A DNA stretch of 64,000 nt from Chloroflexota bacterium (GTDB taxonomy: Bacteria; Chloroflexota; Dehalococcoidia; Lucifugimonadales; UBA3495): contig JAPPGG010000014.1 of NCBI GenBank assembly GCA_028875055.1, forward strand, positions 196,722-260,721, in the 5' to 3' direction. The notes under the pieces were generated by a model. The model did no database searches. It was not told the origin of the DNA and saw only the letters and a list, made by a program, of their open reading frames with translations. Both the position numbers and the translations under genes were made by a program. Below are positions 4,397 to 60,341 of this stretch, piece by piece; within the stretch, counting starts at the first letter, position 1, and the number at the start of each line of letters is the position of its first letter.

Positions 4397-5029
4397 ATGT
4401 CCGAGGCCGATTTCAAGACCTATTACGATTTTCGTTGACCCTACGTATATAACGCCGCCATGTGGCTGGCGCAGGTACGTGAGACCACTGACCAAGAGGT
4501 TAATGTTGACTGGCAGCCCTTCTCCCTTGAACAGGTAAACAGCGACAAGGGCGAAGACTTCAAATTCTGGGAACAGCCCGGCGCCCTGGATGGCACCGAT
4601 AACACCCTGTTGGCCCACCGCGCTGGGCTCGCCGCCAAGCGACAGGGCAAGGAAGCTTTCGAATCTTTCTTCATCTCCCTCCTCAAGCTGCGCCACGAAG
4701 AGCGACGCAGCCTGACCGAGATGGAAGTGATGGAAGAGGCTGTAGCCAACTCCGGCATCGACATAGCTCGCTTCCGGGAAGACCTGGCCGACCCGGATCT
4801 GCTCAGGGAAATCGCCGAAAGTCACACCGAGGCCGTCGAGACCTACGGCGCCTTTGGCGTGCCCACCTATGTCTTCCCCAACGGCAGTTCCGCTTTCGTC
4901 AAGATGCACATTCCCCCGGCGGAACAGTCTGCTGAAATCTACGAGTCCCTGACCCGTGTGATTACCGACGCCCAGCATGTGGGCGAGGTGAAGCGCCCAT
5001 CCCCGCCGTGGCCCCACGGCATCATTTAA
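4397..5029 (+). CDS. DsbA-family thioredoxin-fold oxidoreductase, predicted selenoprotein (in-frame UGA at 4436-4438)
   Basis: ATG 4397 after AGGAGGT SD; MSEADFKTYYDFR-U-PYVYNAAMWL... continues in frame with the listed ORF 4460-5029; GVPTYVF cis-Pro loop; UGA is at the first Cys of the CPxC/CPYV motif. Confidence 0.82.
4443..4480 (+). promoter_or_regulatory. Putative bSECIS stem-loop
   Basis: ACGTA(4443-4447)/TACGT(4476-4480) outer stem; CGCCGCC-ATGT-GGC-T-GGCG apical stem with bulged T; loop starts 21 nt after the UGA. Confidence 0.5.
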
Positions 5030-5050
5030 GGCCGCCTTCCAGGTATTGAT

Positions 5051-52015: not shown

Positions 52016-53557
52016 TCACTGCAAAGCATCGGCTTCCCCAGACTCCGCTTCCCCCTGATCCTCTCTCCGGGAACGCATCTGTGGAAACAACAAGACATCC
52101 CGGATGCTGGCCTGTCCGGTAAGCAGCATCACCAGGCGGTCAATGCCCACGCCCAGGCCGCCGGTGGGGGGCATGCCGTACTCCAGGGCAGTCAGGAAAT
52201 CCTCGTCCAGGCGGTCCACTTCTTCGTCCTGGTATCTCTCACGGATGGACTCCTGGGCTTCAAATCGTTCCCGCTGCACGGCAGGGTCATTCAGCTCAGT
52301 GTAGGAGTTGGCAATTTCCATGCCGGCCGCGAAGGCTTCAAACCGTTCCACGTACCCTGGCGACCCGGGCTTGGCCTTGGCCAGGGGCGACATGTCCTCA
52401 GGATAGTCCAACAGGAACGTGGGTTGCACCAGGTTAGGTTCTACAAAGGTGGATACCAGCTTGTCTATCAGGCGTCCCCGGCTCTCCCGGACCCCCACGT
52501 CGATGCCCAGCTGGAGCATTTTTCTGACCAGGGCCTCATCACCGGGATATTCATCAATGTCCACGCCACTGCGGCGATACAGCTCATCCTTCAGCTGGAG
52601 GCGCGGCCAGGGAGGCGCGAAATCAATAATCTCCTCGCCGTACGGGATGGACATGGTTCCCCGCGCATCCAGGGCAGCGGTTGAAATCATGCCCTCCACC
52701 ATTGTCATCACGTCGTTGTAATCGGCGTAGGCTTCGTAGCTTTCGAGGAGGGTAAACTCCGGGTTGTGGTCCTGGTCTATACCCTCGTTGCGAAAGACGC
52801 GGCCGATTTCATAAACACGGTCAAAACCGCCCACAATGAGCCGTTTCAGGTAAAGCTCGGTGGCGATGCGAAGGTACAGGCGCTGGTTGAGAGCATTGTG
52901 GTGGGTGTCGAAGGGGCGGGCATGGGCGCCGGCCGCCACTGGCACCAATATAGGGGTATCCACCTCCAGAAAACCCCGACCGTCCAGGTAGCGCCTGATG
53001 CTGTTGATGACCCGGCTCCGCTGGGCAAATGCCTCCATAACCTCTGGGTCGGCAATAAGGTCCAGGTAACGTTGCCTGTACCTGATTTCAACATCGCGTA
53101 AACCGTGGTACTTCTCGGGGAGGGGCCGCATTCCCTTGGCCAGGACGGTCACATCCCGGGCTTCGATGGTCACTTCTCCGGTGCGGGTGCGCAGCATTTG
53201 TCCCCCAACACCGATAAAGTCACCCAGGTCCAGATCTTTCAGCAGCTCATAGCCATCCCCCAGTACGTTCTGCCGGAACATGACCTGCACGGCGCCGGAA
53301 CCGTCCCTGATATCCAGAAAGGCGGCCCGTCCCATAACTCTCATGGAAACAATGCGTCCGGCCAGGGCATGTTCGGGAGCCGGACTGGCTTCTTCGTCCT
53401 GGCTTCCCGCCTTTTCCCATGCTTCAAACTCGGCAACGGCGGCGGCCGTGTCGCTGGTCCGCCTGTAACGGGGCGGGTAGGGGTCTATGCCCTTCTCCCG
53501 CAGCCTGTCCAGCTTTACTATGCGGCTTCCAACCAGTGAGTCTTCTCGGTCTTGCAT
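52016..53557 (-). CDS. lysS: Lysyl-tRNA synthetase (class II)
   Basis: GFLEVDTPILVPVAAGAHARPFDTHHNALNQRLYLRIATELYLKRLIVGGFDRVYEIGRVFRNEGI; GLGVGIDRLVMLLTGQASIRDVLLFP. Confidence 0.97.
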   Translation of the reverse strand: MQDREDSLVGSRIVKLDRLREKGIDPYPPRYRRTSDTAAAVAEFEAWEKAGSQDEEASPAPEHALAGRIVSMRVMGRAAFLDIRDGSGAVQVMFRQNVLGDGYELLKDLDLGDFIGVGGQMLRTRTGEVTIEARDVTVLAKGMRPLPEKYHGLRDVEIRYRQRYLDLIADPEVMEAFAQRSRVINSIRRYLDGRGFLEVDTPILVPVAAGAHARPFDTHHNALNQRLYLRIATELYLKRLIVGGFDRVYEIGRVFRNEGIDQDHNPEFTLLESYEAYADYNDVMTMVEGMISTAALDARGTMSIPYGEEIIDFAPPWPRLQLKDELYRRSGVDIDEYPGDEALVRKMLQLGIDVGVRESRGRLIDKLVSTFVEPNLVQPTFLLDYPEDMSPLAKAKPGSPGYVERFEAFAAGMEIANSYTELNDPAVQRERFEAQESIRERYQDEEVDRLDEDFLTALEYGMPPTGGLGVGIDRLVMLLTGQASIRDVLLFPQMRSRREDQGEAESGEADALQ

Positions 53558-53880
53558 GTGCAACAGTTTACAACCTGCATTGCTGGAATTGAAGCCTTGC
53601 TCAACGGGCGGCCAGCGCCGGGAAGTGGAAGCGGCCAGGAAAGCGACAGAACAGGCCCGAATGCCGCTCCTCTCAATTCCTGCTGCGGGGAATGCCACCT
53701 CAGTAATTCCGCGCCAGGGCAGTTGCCCCGTTCAATTGTTACAGAAGCATTCCAAAATTACGAATTCTGACGAAATAGTTAACAAACCTGAAAAACTATT
53801 GTTACAACGGGGCAATATTCGGCACAAATGGGAGCAATACAATTCTGGCTAGCATATTGCCAGGAGGAGAGTATCTCACC

Positions 53881-55233
53881 ATGCTTACCAGAATTTGGGA
53901 CCCCGGCTTAAACCCTTTAACCTTGCGGCGGTTTCTGCCCTATGTCCTGGCCGGGCTACTTGCCTCGGCCATCATGATGGGTTGGAACATCGCGTTTGCG
54001 CAGGACGACCCCACCGTAGAGGAAGTAGCGGCCACCGCGGCCACCGATGTTGGCAACCTTACCACCATGATGGCGGCTTTCCTGGTCTTCTTTATGCAGG
54101 CCGGTTTCGCCTTCCTGGGGGCAGGCCTCATCCGGTCCAAGAGCACAGTCAACTACATGACCAAGAGCTTTATGGACTTTGCCATTGCCTCCCTGTCGTT
54201 CTGGGCCTTCGGCTTCGCCATAATGATGGGGGCATCCGCCGCCGGCATCGCCGGAACTGACAACTTCTTCCTGCTCAATGGCGGCGATGACTGGCAGGTT
54301 TACGTGGACTGGATGTTCCAGATGGTGTTTGCCGGCACGGCGGCTACCATCGTGGCCGGCGCGGTGGCCGAGCGCACCAAGACCCAGGCTTACTTCGCCT
54401 ACAGCTTCCTGATTGGCGCGGTAATCTACCCCCTGTATGGCCACTGGGTCTGGAACGGCGATGGCTGGCTGGCAGCCCTGGGCGCGGCCGACTATGCCGG
54501 TTCCGGCGTGGTCCACGCCGTGGGCGGCTTCATTGCCCTGGCCGGCGCCGCTGTGGTTGGCCCCCGGACCGGCAAGTTCAACGCCGACGGCTCCGCCAAC
54601 CAGCTATACGGACACAACGTACCATATGTGATCATAGGTACCTTCATTCTTTTCTTCGGCTGGTTTGGATTCAACATAAACACGGGCGATTCCATTGGCC
54701 TGAACGCCGTTAACACGCTGCTGGCGGGAGCCACCGGCGCTATAGTCGCCCTTTACATCCAGCTGATCAAATCGGGCAAGATCGACATTCTGATGTCTTG
54801 CAACGGCGCGCTGGCGGGCCTGGTGGGCATAACCGCTCCGGTGGCCTATGTGGACCCCTGGGCTGCCGTAGTCATAGGCGCGCTGGCCGCGCCGATTATG
54901 ATGATTTCCGTATCAGTCATCGAAAAGGTGCTTAAAATCGACGACCCGGTGGGAGCGGCATCAGTGCACGGCGTTTGCGGCCTCTGGGGGCTGCTGGCCG
55001 TAGCCATATTCGCCAGCGGCAACAACGGAACGACCGGGCTGGTCGGTGGCAGCATCGACCTGCTGGTACCCCAGCTGGTCAGCATGGCGGTGGTACTGGC
55101 CTGGGCCCTGGGAACCGGCTTCCTGATGTTCTTCATCCTGAAGGTTGGCATGGGAGTCCGGTTGACCGAGGAGGAAGAACTGGCAGGGGTGGATGCTTCC
55201 GAGCACGGGATGGAAGCCTACCAGATGAGTTAG
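53881..55233 (+). CDS. amt: Ammonium transporter (Amt), with N-terminal signal-like extension
   Basis: AFLVFFMQAGFAFLGAGLIRSKSTVNYM; DYAGSGVVHAVGG; FGWFGFNINTGDS; VHGVCGLWG. Confidence 0.95.
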   Translation: MLTRIWDPGLNPLTLRRFLPYVLAGLLASAIMMGWNIAFAQDDPTVEEVAATAATDVGNLTTMMAAFLVFFMQAGFAFLGAGLIRSKSTVNYMTKSFMDFAIASLSFWAFGFAIMMGASAAGIAGTDNFFLLNGGDDWQVYVDWMFQMVFAGTAATIVAGAVAERTKTQAYFAYSFLIGAVIYPLYGHWVWNGDGWLAALGAADYAGSGVVHAVGGFIALAGAAVVGPRTGKFNADGSANQLYGHNVPYVIIGTFILFFGWFGFNINTGDSIGLNAVNTLLAGATGAIVALYIQLIKSGKIDILMSCNGALAGLVGITAPVAYVDPWAAVVIGALAAPIMMISVSVIEKVLKIDDPVGAASVHGVCGLWGLLAVAIFASGNNGTTGLVGGSIDLLVPQLVSMAVVLAWALGTGFLMFFILKVGMGVRLTEEEELAGVDASEHGMEAYQMS

Positions 55234-55442
55234 CTCCGGTCTCTTCGACCAGCTTCTACTCCGCAACTCAGTGGGGGCAGCCCTTGTGGCTGCCCTCTTC
55301 TTTCCCCAACATTGAGGCCGGCGTCGGCCAAGCCTCCAGAAAGTGTCTGGCAAATTAACACAAAGTTTACCTTTGCGATATTTCCCTGAAACACCTTGAT
55401 TCCAGAATAAGTTCATCAGCAAATTCAAGGGAGTACGAAACG

Positions 55443-55526
55443 ATGGAAATCATTCTTGCAGCAGCAGCCTTCATTGGTCTCTTCAGCATGTGGGTAATAG
55501 TCCCCAGGATGCTGCTCAAGAAGTAG
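55443..55526 (+). CDS. 27-aa single-TM microprotein, copy 1
   Basis: MEIILAAAAFIGLFSMWVIVPRMLLKK*; SD AGGGAG; paralog at 55717. Confidence 0.75.
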   Translation: MEIILAAAAFIGLFSMWVIVPRMLLKK

Positions 55527-55716
55527 GCCTAATCCGCCGGTCGGTCCAGCGCCCATGGACCCGCCCCGTGGTCGGATGTCCAACTCGGAAAACGCGGACC
55601 ACCGGCCAGGGAAAAAGCCAGGTTCTTGTAACAAAAAGTTAACAAGTTGGTAAATTCCCCGAAACATTAGGATTCCAAAATCTGGGCCATAAACCATTGG
55701 CGAGGAGCAACGAAAA

Positions 55717-55800
55717 ATGGAAATCATCGCGGCGGGGGCAGCATTCATCGGACTCTTCAGCATGTGGGTAGTGCTGCCAAAACTGTTCCTGAAGAAGTAG
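55717..55800 (+). CDS. 27-aa single-TM microprotein, copy 2
   Basis: MEIIAAGAAFIGLFSMWVVLPKLFLKK*; SD GAGGAG; 20/27 identical to copy 1. Confidence 0.75.
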   Translation: MEIIAAGAAFIGLFSMWVVLPKLFLKK

Positions 55801-55999
55801 TCGGGACTCGAAACCCCGGTACTTCAGGAAGGGCGGCCTGACTGAAACCCTGAAAGGTCCATACTTCGAGCGCTTGGATTGGAGTATGGGCTGTTTCTAT
55901 TCCTGCAGTGAAGGTTGTGGCCCGCCCAGCTCGTTTGGGCCGTAGCGTTTAAATTCCAAACTTCGTTCGCCGGATTCGCCAAAAGGGAGATGGCAAAGT

Positions 56000-57214
56000 A
56001 TGAATACTGGAGATACTGCCTGGATTCTGGCTTGCTCGGCGCTGGTCCTCCTTATGACCCCGGGTCTGGCCTTCTTCTACGGGGGCCTGGTCCGCCGGAA
56101 AAACGCCACCGCGACCATAATGCACAGCCTTATGTGCATGGGCCTGGTTGGAGTGGTCTGGGTCCTGTGGGGCTACAGCCTGGCATTCAGCGGAGATTTC
56201 AACGGCTGGGGCATTGTTGGAGATCTGCAGTGGTTTGGCCTTGCCGGCGTAAGCGCAGACGAAACAGGCCCCTACGCCGATAACATCTCTCACCAGACCT
56301 TTATGGTCTTCCAGGGAATGTTCGCCATCATTACGCCGGCGCTGATAACCGGCGGATTTGCCGAGCGAATGAAGTTCAGCGCCTTTGTCATTTTCACCGT
56401 GGTATGGGTGACCGTCGTTTACGCCCCCGTAACCCACTGGGTGTGGGGCGGCGGCTGGCTGGGCAACCTGGGCGCGCTGGACTTCGCCGGCGGCACGGTG
56501 GTCCACATCAACTCCGGTATAGCAGCCCTGGCCGCTGCATTGATCATCGGAAAACGCATTGGCTTTGGCGAGCAGCCCATGCCGCCTCACAACGTCCCGA
56601 TGATTGTCCTCGGAGCCGGTCTGCTGTGGTTCGGCTGGTTCGGCTTTAACGCCGGAAGCGCCCTGGCTGCCGATGGTGTGGCGGTTAACGCCTTTGTAGT
56701 GACCAATACTGCCGCAGCGGCCGCGCTGGTTTCCTGGGTAGCGATGTCCTGGATATTCGGGAAGCGCCCCAGCATCATCGGCGCCGCTTCGGGTGCGGTG
56801 GCCGGCCTGGTGGCGATAACCCCGGCGGCAGGCTTTGTGGGCGCAATGCCGGCGGTTATAATTGGTCTCGTGGCAGGTGCAATCTGTTACGGCGCCATTG
56901 AACTGCTGCTCAAGCTGAAAGTGGACGACGCCCTGGCGGTCTGGGGTGTTCACGGCATGGGCGGCACCTGGGGCGCCCTGGCCACCGGCCTTTTCGTGGG
57001 CATCGGATACAGCGCCCTGCCCGATGGGACGGGCCGCGGCGAGCAGGTACTGATTCAGTTGATCGGTATCGTTGGCACCGCCATATGGTCCTTCATCGCT
57101 ACCAGCGCAATCCTGCTGGCCCTGAAATACACCATCGGCCTCAGGGTTGATGAAAGCGAGGAACAGCTGGGTCTGGATGCTTCCACCCACGGCGAAGGCG
57201 CATACACAATCTAG
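56000..57214 (+). CDS. amt: Ammonium transporter (Amt), second paralog
   Basis: LLMTPGLAFFYGGLVRRKN; DFAGGTVVHINSGIAALAAAL; FGWFGFNAGSAL; WGVHGMGGTWGALATG. Confidence 0.95.
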   Translation: MNTGDTAWILACSALVLLMTPGLAFFYGGLVRRKNATATIMHSLMCMGLVGVVWVLWGYSLAFSGDFNGWGIVGDLQWFGLAGVSADETGPYADNISHQTFMVFQGMFAIITPALITGGFAERMKFSAFVIFTVVWVTVVYAPVTHWVWGGGWLGNLGALDFAGGTVVHINSGIAALAAALIIGKRIGFGEQPMPPHNVPMIVLGAGLLWFGWFGFNAGSALAADGVAVNAFVVTNTAAAAALVSWVAMSWIFGKRPSIIGAASGAVAGLVAITPAAGFVGAMPAVIIGLVAGAICYGAIELLLKLKVDDALAVWGVHGMGGTWGALATGLFVGIGYSALPDGTGRGEQVLIQLIGIVGTAIWSFIATSAILLALKYTIGLRVDESEEQLGLDASTHGEGAYTI

Positions 57215-57290
57215 ATTTTCGGCGGCCCATTAACGCCTCAATTGAGGTATGGAGTCCGCCAGGGAAAAACAAACAGCGAGGTTTTAGTAA

Positions 57291-58316
57291 ATGAGCTACA
57301 AGGCTGAGTACATATGGATTGACGGTCAGGAGCCCACGGCGAAGCTGCGTTCCAAGGGCAAGATCGTGCCCGATGGCGAAGAGCCCCCTGTCTGGGGATT
57401 TGACGGCTCCAGCACCAACCAGGCGCCAGGCGAAGCTTCGGACTGTGTTCTGAATCCCGTGCTGGTCGTACCCGACCCGATTCGCGGCGGCGACAACAAG
57501 CTGGTCATGTGCGAGGTCCTGCTGACCGACATGACCGCCCATCCTTCCAACACCCGCGCCGGCTGCGCGGCCGCTGCTGCCCAGTACGCCGACCTGGACT
57601 TCTGGTTCGGCATCGAGCAGGAGTACACCTTCTTTGACGGGATCAAGCCCCTGGGCTGGCCCGACAACGGTTTCCCCGCGCCCCAGGGCGGCTACTACTG
57701 CGGCGTGGGATCCGATGAGGTTTTCGGGCGCCCGGTGGTTGAACAGCACATGGACGCCTGCCTTTACGCCGGCCTGGCCATATCCGGCATTAACGGCGAA
57801 GTGATGCCGGCCCAGTGGGAGTTCCAGATCGGGCCCATCGGCGCCCCTGCCGTAGGAGACCACCTCTGGCTGGCCCGCTGGCTCCTTTATCGCATTGGCG
57901 AGGACGTGGAGACGGTGGATGGCCGCCGCGGAATCAGCGCAACCCTGGACCCCAAGCCGGTAAAGGGCGACTGGAACGGCGCCGGGGCCCACACCAACTT
58001 CTCCACCAACCGGATGCGCGAAGACTACGACGCCTGCGTTGCTGCCGCCGAGGCCCTGAGCAAGCGCCACGACCTGCACATCGCCAACTACGGTCACCGG
58101 ATTGAGGAGCGGCTGACCGGCCTGCATGAGACCTGCTCATACCGCGAGTTCCGGTATGGCGTCTCCGACCGGGGCGCCTCCGTGCGGATACCCTGGCAGG
58201 TGGCCAGGGACCGCATGGGCTACATCGAAGACCGCCGCCCCAACGCCAACTCAGACCCCTACGTCGTCACCCGGTTGATTGTTGAGACCGTGGGCGCCGA
58301 CGCCAAGGGACAGTAG
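57291..58316 (+). CDS. glnII: Glutamine synthetase type II (eukaryotic-like)
   Basis: YKAEYIWIDGQEPTAKLRSKGKI; WGFDGSSTNQAPGEASDCVLNPV; GAGAHTNFST. Confidence 0.94.
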   Translation: MSYKAEYIWIDGQEPTAKLRSKGKIVPDGEEPPVWGFDGSSTNQAPGEASDCVLNPVLVVPDPIRGGDNKLVMCEVLLTDMTAHPSNTRAGCAAAAAQYADLDFWFGIEQEYTFFDGIKPLGWPDNGFPAPQGGYYCGVGSDEVFGRPVVEQHMDACLYAGLAISGINGEVMPAQWEFQIGPIGAPAVGDHLWLARWLLYRIGEDVETVDGRRGISATLDPKPVKGDWNGAGAHTNFSTNRMREDYDACVAAAEALSKRHDLHIANYGHRIEERLTGLHETCSYREFRYGVSDRGASVRIPWQVARDRMGYIEDRRPNANSDPYVVTRLIVETVGADAKGQ

Positions 58317-58337
58317 ATCGGTCAGAGAGTCATTGCG

Positions 58338-58367
58338 GAAACGCCGCCTCGGGCGAGGCGGCGTTTT
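58338..58367 (+). terminator. Rho-independent terminator after glnII
   Basis: AACGCCGCCTC-GGGC-GAGGCGGCGTTTTCC. Confidence 0.8.
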
Positions 58368-58483
58368 CCTGTCAGTACGGGTTCCCGCAGTTTGAAGTAA
58401 ATTATGCCATTTGCAGCCTCCGGTAAAGGCAAATGTACCCCTGGCCCCGCCGGACTAACAGAAACGCGCCTCGGGAGTTTGAA

Positions 58484-59863
58484 ATGATGGAATCGCGCAC
58501 CACTGAGCAGGAATACGTGCTGCGCACAGCCAGAGACAACGACGTCAAATTTGTACGTCTCTGGTTCACTGACATTCTGGGCAACCTCAAGGGATTTGCC
58601 ATCAATGTGGATGACCTGGAAGAGGCCATTGTGCAAGGGGTGGGCTTTGACGGGTCGGCTATCGAGGGATTCGCCCGCGCCACCGAAGACTCTTACCGAA
58701 TTGATGAGAGCGACATGCGGGCGTACCCCGATCCCACTACCTTTGCCGTACTTCCCTGGAGGCCCCGGCAAAACGCGGTAGCGCGCATGTTCTGCGACAT
58801 CTATTCACCGGGCGGCGACCCCTTTATGGGGGACCCCCGTCTGGCGCTCAAGCGAAACCTGGAACGCCTGTCGCAAATGGGCTACACCTATTACGTTGGG
58901 CCGGAGCTGGAGTTCTTTTACCTGGAAAAACCGGAAATGGACAGTTCCAACAAACTGCGGCCTCCCCAGCCCCTGGACCTGGACGGGTACTTTGACCAGC
59001 TCTCCAGCAACCCGACCGCCGACCTGCGCCGCGACACGGTGCTGAACCTTTCCGACATGGGCATTCCGGTCAAGTACTCCCACCACGAAGGCGCCCACAG
59101 CCAGCATGAAATAGACCTTCAATACACGGACGCCCTGACAATGGCGGACAGCGTGATAACGGCCAAGCTGGCGATTAAAGAACTGGCCCAGTTGCGGGGT
59201 TTCCACGCCTCGTTTATGCCCAAGCCCTTTACCGGCGTGAACGGTTCCGGAATGCACACTCACCAGTCCCTCTTCAAGGGAGACGTAAACGCGTTCTACG
59301 ACCCCGAGGACGAGTACCGGCTCTCTTCAGTGGCCAAGCGATTTATTTCCGGGCTCATACGCCATGCCCCGGAGATAACGCTGGTTACCAACCAGTGGAT
59401 CAACTCCTACAAGCGGCTGGTACCCGGTTACGAGGCCCCGGTCTATATTTCCTGGGCTCGAAGCAGGTCCGACCTGGTGCGGGTCCCGTCCTACAAGCCC
59501 GGTTACGAAACATCGGTCCGGATCGAGTACCGGGCCCCGGACCCGGCCTGCAATCCCTACCTGGCTTTCAGCGTTATGCTGGCGGCGGGTATGAAGGGAA
59601 TCGAGGAGGAATACCCGGAAGTTCCGCCGGTTGAGGGCAATGTATTTGCCATGTCCCGCGATGAGTTCCAGGCCCAGGGTATAAGGGTCCTGCCCGGCAG
59701 CCTGGGGGAAGCCATTTCCATCGCGGAAGACAGCGCCCTTTTGCGGGAAGCGCTTGGCGACCACATCCTGGAGAGCTACATTCGCAACAAGCGCCTGGAA
59801 TGGCAGAAATACCGGGCCACAGTCACGGACTATGAGATAGAACAATACCTCCCGACTTTATAG
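58484..59863 (+). CDS. glnA: Glutamine synthetase type I
   Basis: VKFVRLWFTDILGNLKGFAI; GFDGSAIEGF; GPELEFFYLE; FMPKPFTGVNGSGMHTHQSL. Confidence 0.95.
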   Translation: MMESRTTEQEYVLRTARDNDVKFVRLWFTDILGNLKGFAINVDDLEEAIVQGVGFDGSAIEGFARATEDSYRIDESDMRAYPDPTTFAVLPWRPRQNAVARMFCDIYSPGGDPFMGDPRLALKRNLERLSQMGYTYYVGPELEFFYLEKPEMDSSNKLRPPQPLDLDGYFDQLSSNPTADLRRDTVLNLSDMGIPVKYSHHEGAHSQHEIDLQYTDALTMADSVITAKLAIKELAQLRGFHASFMPKPFTGVNGSGMHTHQSLFKGDVNAFYDPEDEYRLSSVAKRFISGLIRHAPEITLVTNQWINSYKRLVPGYEAPVYISWARSRSDLVRVPSYKPGYETSVRIEYRAPDPACNPYLAFSVMLAAGMKGIEEEYPEVPPVEGNVFAMSRDEFQAQGIRVLPGSLGEAISIAEDSALLREALGDHILESYIRNKRLEWQKYRATVTDYEIEQYLPTL

Positions 59864-60341
59864 CCGCACTGACTTGAGCTGTTCGCGGCAGGCCAAGGGC
59901 ACTGTAATTCCACCTCAATTTGTGCGAGAGGCTGGCGGCAGGGACTTATGCCACCCTGTGCAGGCGGAAAGGTCCCAACTCCTGGCTGGGAGCACGGGCT
60001 GGTAACACAGTTCCTGGCCAGAATTTGCGGGCCCGAACCAAAGCAACCGGGGGGCGTCTGCCTGGCATTCTCCTTCTCCTAAGCGCGGCCTGCAATCCGG
60101 TCTTGCCAGGATAAACCCAACGCAATCAAAGCCGGCATCCCAGGCCTGCTGGCTTCTTTCGGCTTGACGGTGATATCCCAGCGAATCACTACAAACGCGC
60201 CTTTCGCCCGGGTTTCGGTTCAGGTGTCCCAATTTCGCTTCGCACGACTGTCAGCAAGACTAAATTGTCCTGAAATTTGGGATGGGAGAGCAATGCCCCC
60301 TCCCTCTTTACTTCTCGAAGGTGCAAGCGGCTTTCCCAGCT

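Follow-up and report, generated by a model that had tools for sequence, protein, structure and literature searches.

The window analysed here, the whole stretch of 64,000 nucleotides from a Chloroflexota genome, carries on its forward strand two ammonium transporter genes, amt1 (53881..55233) and amt2 (56000..57214), between which lie two short open reading frames, s1 (55443..55526) and s2 (55717..55800). An earlier note on this DNA had read both flanking genes as ammonium transporters, and the PF00909 matches (398.5 bits for amt1 and 424.3 bits for amt2) agree with it. 3' of amt2, tandem glutamine synthetase genes of two types occupy 57291-59863 on the same strand: the first (57291..58316, 341 aa, PF03951/PF00120) is labelled glnII from its length and weak Pfam scores, and the second (58433..59863, 476 aa, PF00120 389 bits) is of the GlnA type. 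The PII genes of this genome are located on other contigs, outside the amt/glutamine synthetase cluster.

The translation of s1 is MEIILAAAAFIGLFSMWVIVPRMLLKK and that of s2, its tandem paralogue, is MEIIAAGAAFIGLFSMWVVLPKLFLKK; both products are 27 aa long, a size at which genes are easily overlooked, and are identical at 20/27 positions. SD-like sequences, AAGGGAG and GCGAGGAG, precede s1 and s2 respectively. The two reading frames with their exact coordinates and identity, as well as a plausible start signal for each, had been described in the earlier note and were all recovered here. Gaps of 209 nt separate amt1 from s1 and of 199 nt separate s2 from amt2, and the end of s1 is 473 nt from amt2. 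What was duplicated is the reading frame together with an array resembling an operator, some 90 nt 5' of it.

Conservation of s1 and s2 and their predicted helix

The closest relative found is Chloroflexi MAG SB0662_bin_28 (locus L032), whose amt2 is 93% identical and which has the same pair of small reading frames at the same location. By the Nei-Gojobori method, dN/dS against L032 is 0.05 for s1, 0.057 for s2 and 0.07 for the pair pooled (0.03 for amt2), the ratios of s1 and s2 being only approximate because dS is near saturation. Substitutions at the three codon positions number 5, 3 and 14 in s1 and 2, 2 and 12 in s2, so that third positions account for 14/22 and 12/16 respectively. The intergenic DNA of the window aligns poorly with that of L032, the exceptions being the reading frames and short boxes that precede them by about 90 nt. 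Low dN/dS, the excess of third-position changes and the diverged spacers together show that s1 and s2 are real genes, kept as peptides by purifying selection and not as DNA alone. The selection that the earlier note had argued for is thus confirmed. It had also staked its case on presence in related genomes, and there the pair was found in L032 and a family of such peptides across Chloroflexota.

The peptides are hydrophobic, with a Kyte-Doolittle maximum of 2.1-2.4 over 19 residues in s1 and s2. An AlphaFold2 model of a 43-aa relative (L119) is a single helix from residue 3 to 32, with pLDDT 93-96 across the first 20 residues. As a prediction, therefore, the single transmembrane helix proposed earlier holds. 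The conservation moment is strongest at the angle of an alpha helix, 100 degrees (p 0.007 by permutation), and the conserved residues therefore form a stripe on one side of the predicted helix, as expected if the helix is packed on something. Positive charge is higher on the C-terminal than on the N-terminal side in 23/23 peptides of the Amt1 type and 29/40 of the Amt2 type (the two types are described below). This charge excess predicts an N-out/C-in orientation by the positive-inside rule, less certainly for the Amt2 type, in which the C-terminal charge is weaker.

A microprotein family linked to amt across Chloroflexota

A tblastn search with s2 against 396 genomes of the class returned weak but well-placed relatives, and a first profile built from 20 of these reached further than tblastn. 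A second profile (36 sequences), run against 399 genomes of the phylum, matched 99 at E<=0.05, many of the weakest matches being chance. The family so defined comprises peptides of 25-50 aa that begin with a hydrophobic helix and carry an exactly spaced F-x6-W-x3-P signature, features that s1 and s2, which match the family profile, share. Across 74 aligned sequences the W is replaced by F in three, position F-4 is a small residue (A, G or S) in all 74, and position F-8 is Glu in 53, giving the pattern [E]-x3-[AGS]-x3-F-x2-[LM]-x3-W-x3-P. Within the 64 kb of the window the only two occurrences of the signature are s1 and s2, and Markov-shuffled sequence totalling about 2.4 Mb yielded none. The microproteins had no significant match in Pfam, NCBIfam, Rfam or PDB, and no publication on the family was found in a literature whose coverage is thin for subscription journals and preprints; it is apparently undescribed.

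Most members are single. The tandem arrangement singled out in the earlier note does recur (L032, L116) and is not essential to the family. Second copies of the small reading frame were also seen in G430, G559, G001 and L116, and at L236 a seemingly frame-broken second copy (4922-5044) stands between amt2 and the intact copy. In G372, the sole sampled genome of the window's own taxonomic family, the profile missed the copy; a variant reading frame (W-x4-P) is found directly after amt (L289).

The neighbourhoods of 73 matches were checked for Amt, PII and glutamine synthetase genes, and 71 were counted after exclusion of the very weak L169 and L170. An amt gene was found less than 1 kb away in 54/71, on the same strand in 54/54, and s1 and s2 share this location. 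With random placement and about three amt genes per genome, the chance of such linkage is negligible; the probability is inexact because several matches come from related genomes. The 17 unlinked matches, in which L174 and L240 are included, comprise among others glnA-linked copies (L156, L161) and a copy at a contig edge (L233). Members distant from amt are those of L113, L118, L215, L221, L224, L227, L235 and the f108 genomes (L205-L209). In the latter, the Amt1-type small reading frame is accompanied by about 290 conserved surrounding bases with no amt within about 5 kb, the amt genes of these genomes being at other locations. Short hydrophobic F..W..P reading frames distant from amt were also noted in L170, L174 and L240, the one in L174 (1396-1533) adjoining an ArsP-like permease gene; these may be unrelated to the family, possibly a separate one.

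Seen from the transporter, the signature is present in 13/30 top-scoring Chloroflexota Amt loci and a variant of it in a 14th (L270). A blind scan of about 60 Amt loci for SD-preceded, N-terminally hydrophobic short reading frames returned almost solely this family. Among 68 Amt loci whose titles name other phyla there was no case of the signature, and none of an SD-preceded hydrophobic short reading frame within 200 nt after amt; within the limits of this 68-locus sample the family therefore looks confined to Chloroflexota. Many amt genes, the window's own order included, are without a detectable partner, which means that Amt can work without the microprotein.

Unsupervised clustering of the 74 peptide cores by their sequence gave two groups. 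The first contained 15/15 Amt1-linked peptides and eight located between amt1 and amt2, s1 being of this Amt1 type, while the second contained 40/40 Amt2-linked peptides (Fisher p 8e-14 for the split against the Amt1-linked ones). The small gene of Chloroflexia-type loci mostly stands 13-60 nt after amt2. Dehalococcoidia have one type after amt2-glnB and another before or after amt1, and the two kinds occur together in a single cluster of G023 (L120), where one adjoins amt1 and its counterpart lies past amt2-glnB. Paralogue-specific partners would give such a split, although inheritance of intact cassettes, and not binding, could lie behind part of the linkage and co-clustering. A genomic partnership between microprotein and amt is strongly supported, and the tie to Amt drawn in the earlier note from a single locus extends, specific to partner type, across the phylum.

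GlnR-type operator arrays and probable transcription units

The published actinomycete GlnR box is gTnAc-n6-GaAAc (PMC10704036). A matrix written from this consensus, and not fitted, was scored along the window, the regulator of the present host being a candidate only. The matrix has its top three distinct sites of the 64 kb in the amt region, on the forward strand. The best, 5' of s2 (55628..55665, score 24.7), reads GTAAC-n6-TTAAC-n6-GTAAA-n6-GAAAC; the second, 5' of s1 (55355..55392, score 23.6), reads TTAAC-n6-TTTAC-n6-GATAT-n6-GAAAC, four 5-mers with an 11-bp period; and the third, 5' of amt1 (53779..53816, score 17.7), reads TTAAC-n6-GAAAA-n6-GTTAC-n6-GCAAT. The boxes 5' of s1 and of s2 are both conserved in L032. 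The remaining high scores come from the s1 and s2 arrays themselves, read in an overlapping register or on the reverse strand, or from a site at 53066 (15.7). In 20 shuffled windows the maxima ranged from 10.5 to 18.3, which puts the sites of s1 and s2 far above what chance would give and leaves that of amt1, taken alone, as a borderline case.

GlnR-type arrays accompany many other Dehalococcoidia members, the orphan L113 included, and none were seen in the family members of other classes that were examined. OmpR-type regulators are encoded in several such clusters, and that of L121 passes the GlnR_1st cut-off (34.9 bits). Besides the three arrays of the window, GlnR-like arrays or OmpR-type regulators were noted in L114, L116, L117, L119, L121, L124, L159 and L173. 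The best candidate regulator in this genome is an OmpR-type protein (G000:C68) with 40% identity to the L116 regulator; it had no match to GlnR_1st. Judged from these motifs and gene contexts, there appears to be a GlnR-like nitrogen regulon in Dehalococcoidia, with 11-bp direct repeats and OmpR-type regulators beside amt, on which no publication was found.

A hairpin resembling an intrinsic terminator (55273..55297, forward strand; 10 pairs, 8 of them G-C; consensus match) lies after amt1 and before s1, in a region where five terminator-like sites were found against 4.2 expected. With this hairpin between amt1 and s1, the two small genes look like separate short transcription units between the two transporters. 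The s2 operator could serve amt2 as well.

Proposed role of the microproteins

Our preferred interpretation, which we hold to be probable though far from assured, is that s1 and s2 belong to a group of Chloroflexota single-pass subunits of 25-50 aa with an accessory or regulatory function on Amt. In such a mechanism, s1 and s2 would be expressed under nitrogen limitation and the helix would insert N-out/C-in. Its conserved face may pack against the transmembrane surface of Amt. The basic tail at its C-terminus would then come to lie at the mouth on the cytoplasmic side, where PII proteins and Amt's own C-terminal region act. Amt might thereby be stabilised, or its activity or PII gating tuned; activating, stabilising or inhibiting effects are alike possible, and we infer both the physical binding to Amt and the direction of the effect. 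Each of s1 and s2 may serve one Amt, or both may join mixed complexes.

The most serious competitor is that the family consists of membrane microproteins for nitrogen stress that pair with PII, with glutamine synthetase or with some other envelope protein and not with Amt itself, its proximity to amt coming from a co-inherited and co-regulated nitrogen cluster. Members directly after glnB and before glnA (L158, L159, L162, L164-L166), the glnA-adjacent copies without amt and the several orphan members are consistent with this, as are basic C-tails that could bind cytosolic proteins. However, the small gene of the Chloroflexia-type loci stands directly after amt2, at 13-60 nt, and neither glnB nor glnA turned up in the vicinity (L216, L217, L223, L225, L228-L232, L238, L242); the peptide type tracks the Amt type, and it is the membrane helix, not the tail, that bears the conserved face. 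On this evidence we regard a PII or glutamine synthetase partner as unlikely.

Type I toxins are typically small, hydrophobic and duplicated in tandem, each copy with a promoter of its own. The resemblance of s1 and s2 to these raises the possibility of a small hydrophobic toxin, either of a type I toxin-antitoxin system or a persistence peptide, with tandem copies as in ldr/ibs. Yet same-strand linkage to amt extends throughout the phylum, with specificity for partner type and with GlnR-type operators, most members are single copies, and no Rfam match was found in 53400-60000; a toxin is thus very improbable. Marginally less probable still is a translated leader or spacer reading frame controlling the downstream amt, its peptide sequence being of minor importance: members do stand directly 5' of amt1 in L117, L119, L120 and L121, but many others are 3' of their amt, the peptide itself is under strong constraint, and the distance to amt2 is 473 nt from the end of s1 and 199 nt from that of s2, both genes having their own operators and s1 a terminator-like hairpin ahead of it. 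These counts against each alternative are the reason for placing an Amt subunit first.

Small proteins attached to transporters have been described in Enterobacteria: AcrZ (on AcrB), MgtS (on MgtA/PitA) and MgtR/MgtU (PMC10710835). Proteins of the AcrZ/MgtS kind have 30-50 aa and mostly a single helix, bind a far larger transporter and are often stress-induced, a likeness that we propose for s1 and s2, which by hydropathy and the AlphaFold2 model of the L119 relative are likewise predicted to have one transmembrane helix. No sequence relation to them was found, and the present family differs in its candidate partner (Amt/Mep/Rh), in its host phylum and in a gene that adjoins the transporter gene. 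KdpF (KdpFABC) and CydX (CydABX) are single-transmembrane subunits of about 30 aa encoded beside their large membrane partner. They resemble s1 and s2, with their predicted single helix, in size, architecture and adjoining gene, whereas sequence and partner are other; unlike them, the present family also occurs as tandem pairs between paralogous transporters and is not universal with Amt. The only small protein found in the literature to act on an Amt is sP36 of Methanosarcina mazei, a soluble protein of 61 aa with no transmembrane helix that is recruited to AmtB1 together with GlnK1 (PMC10714827). An action on an ammonium transporter according to nitrogen status is likewise proposed for s1 and s2; a homologue of sP36 or an AmtB regulator of its type was rejected, since sP36 has about 61 aa and is soluble, and s1 and s2 are hydrophobic helices of 27 aa. 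For Amt/Mep/Rh, the small-protein review lists PII proteins as the only regulators (PMC10710835).

For the phylum as a whole, the chances seem evenly balanced that dedicated single-helix subunits of Amt/Mep/Rh, in paralogue-specific lineages, set the activity, stability or PII gating of the transporter by nitrogen status. If true, this would be, as far as we have found, the first transmembrane microprotein subunit for the superfamily. Few transporters have been studied as well as the Amt/Mep/Rh proteins, which are usually viewed as homotrimers under the control of PII and of their own C-terminal tail. Chloroflexota are abundant in the ocean, in soils and in wastewater plants, and a conserved extra transmembrane subunit would alter both the reconstitution and the interpretation of their Amt transporters. 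The 74 aligned members, with their exact spacing, single conserved face and two partner-specific lineages, make the family a clean case in which to study recognition of a transporter by a minimal helix.
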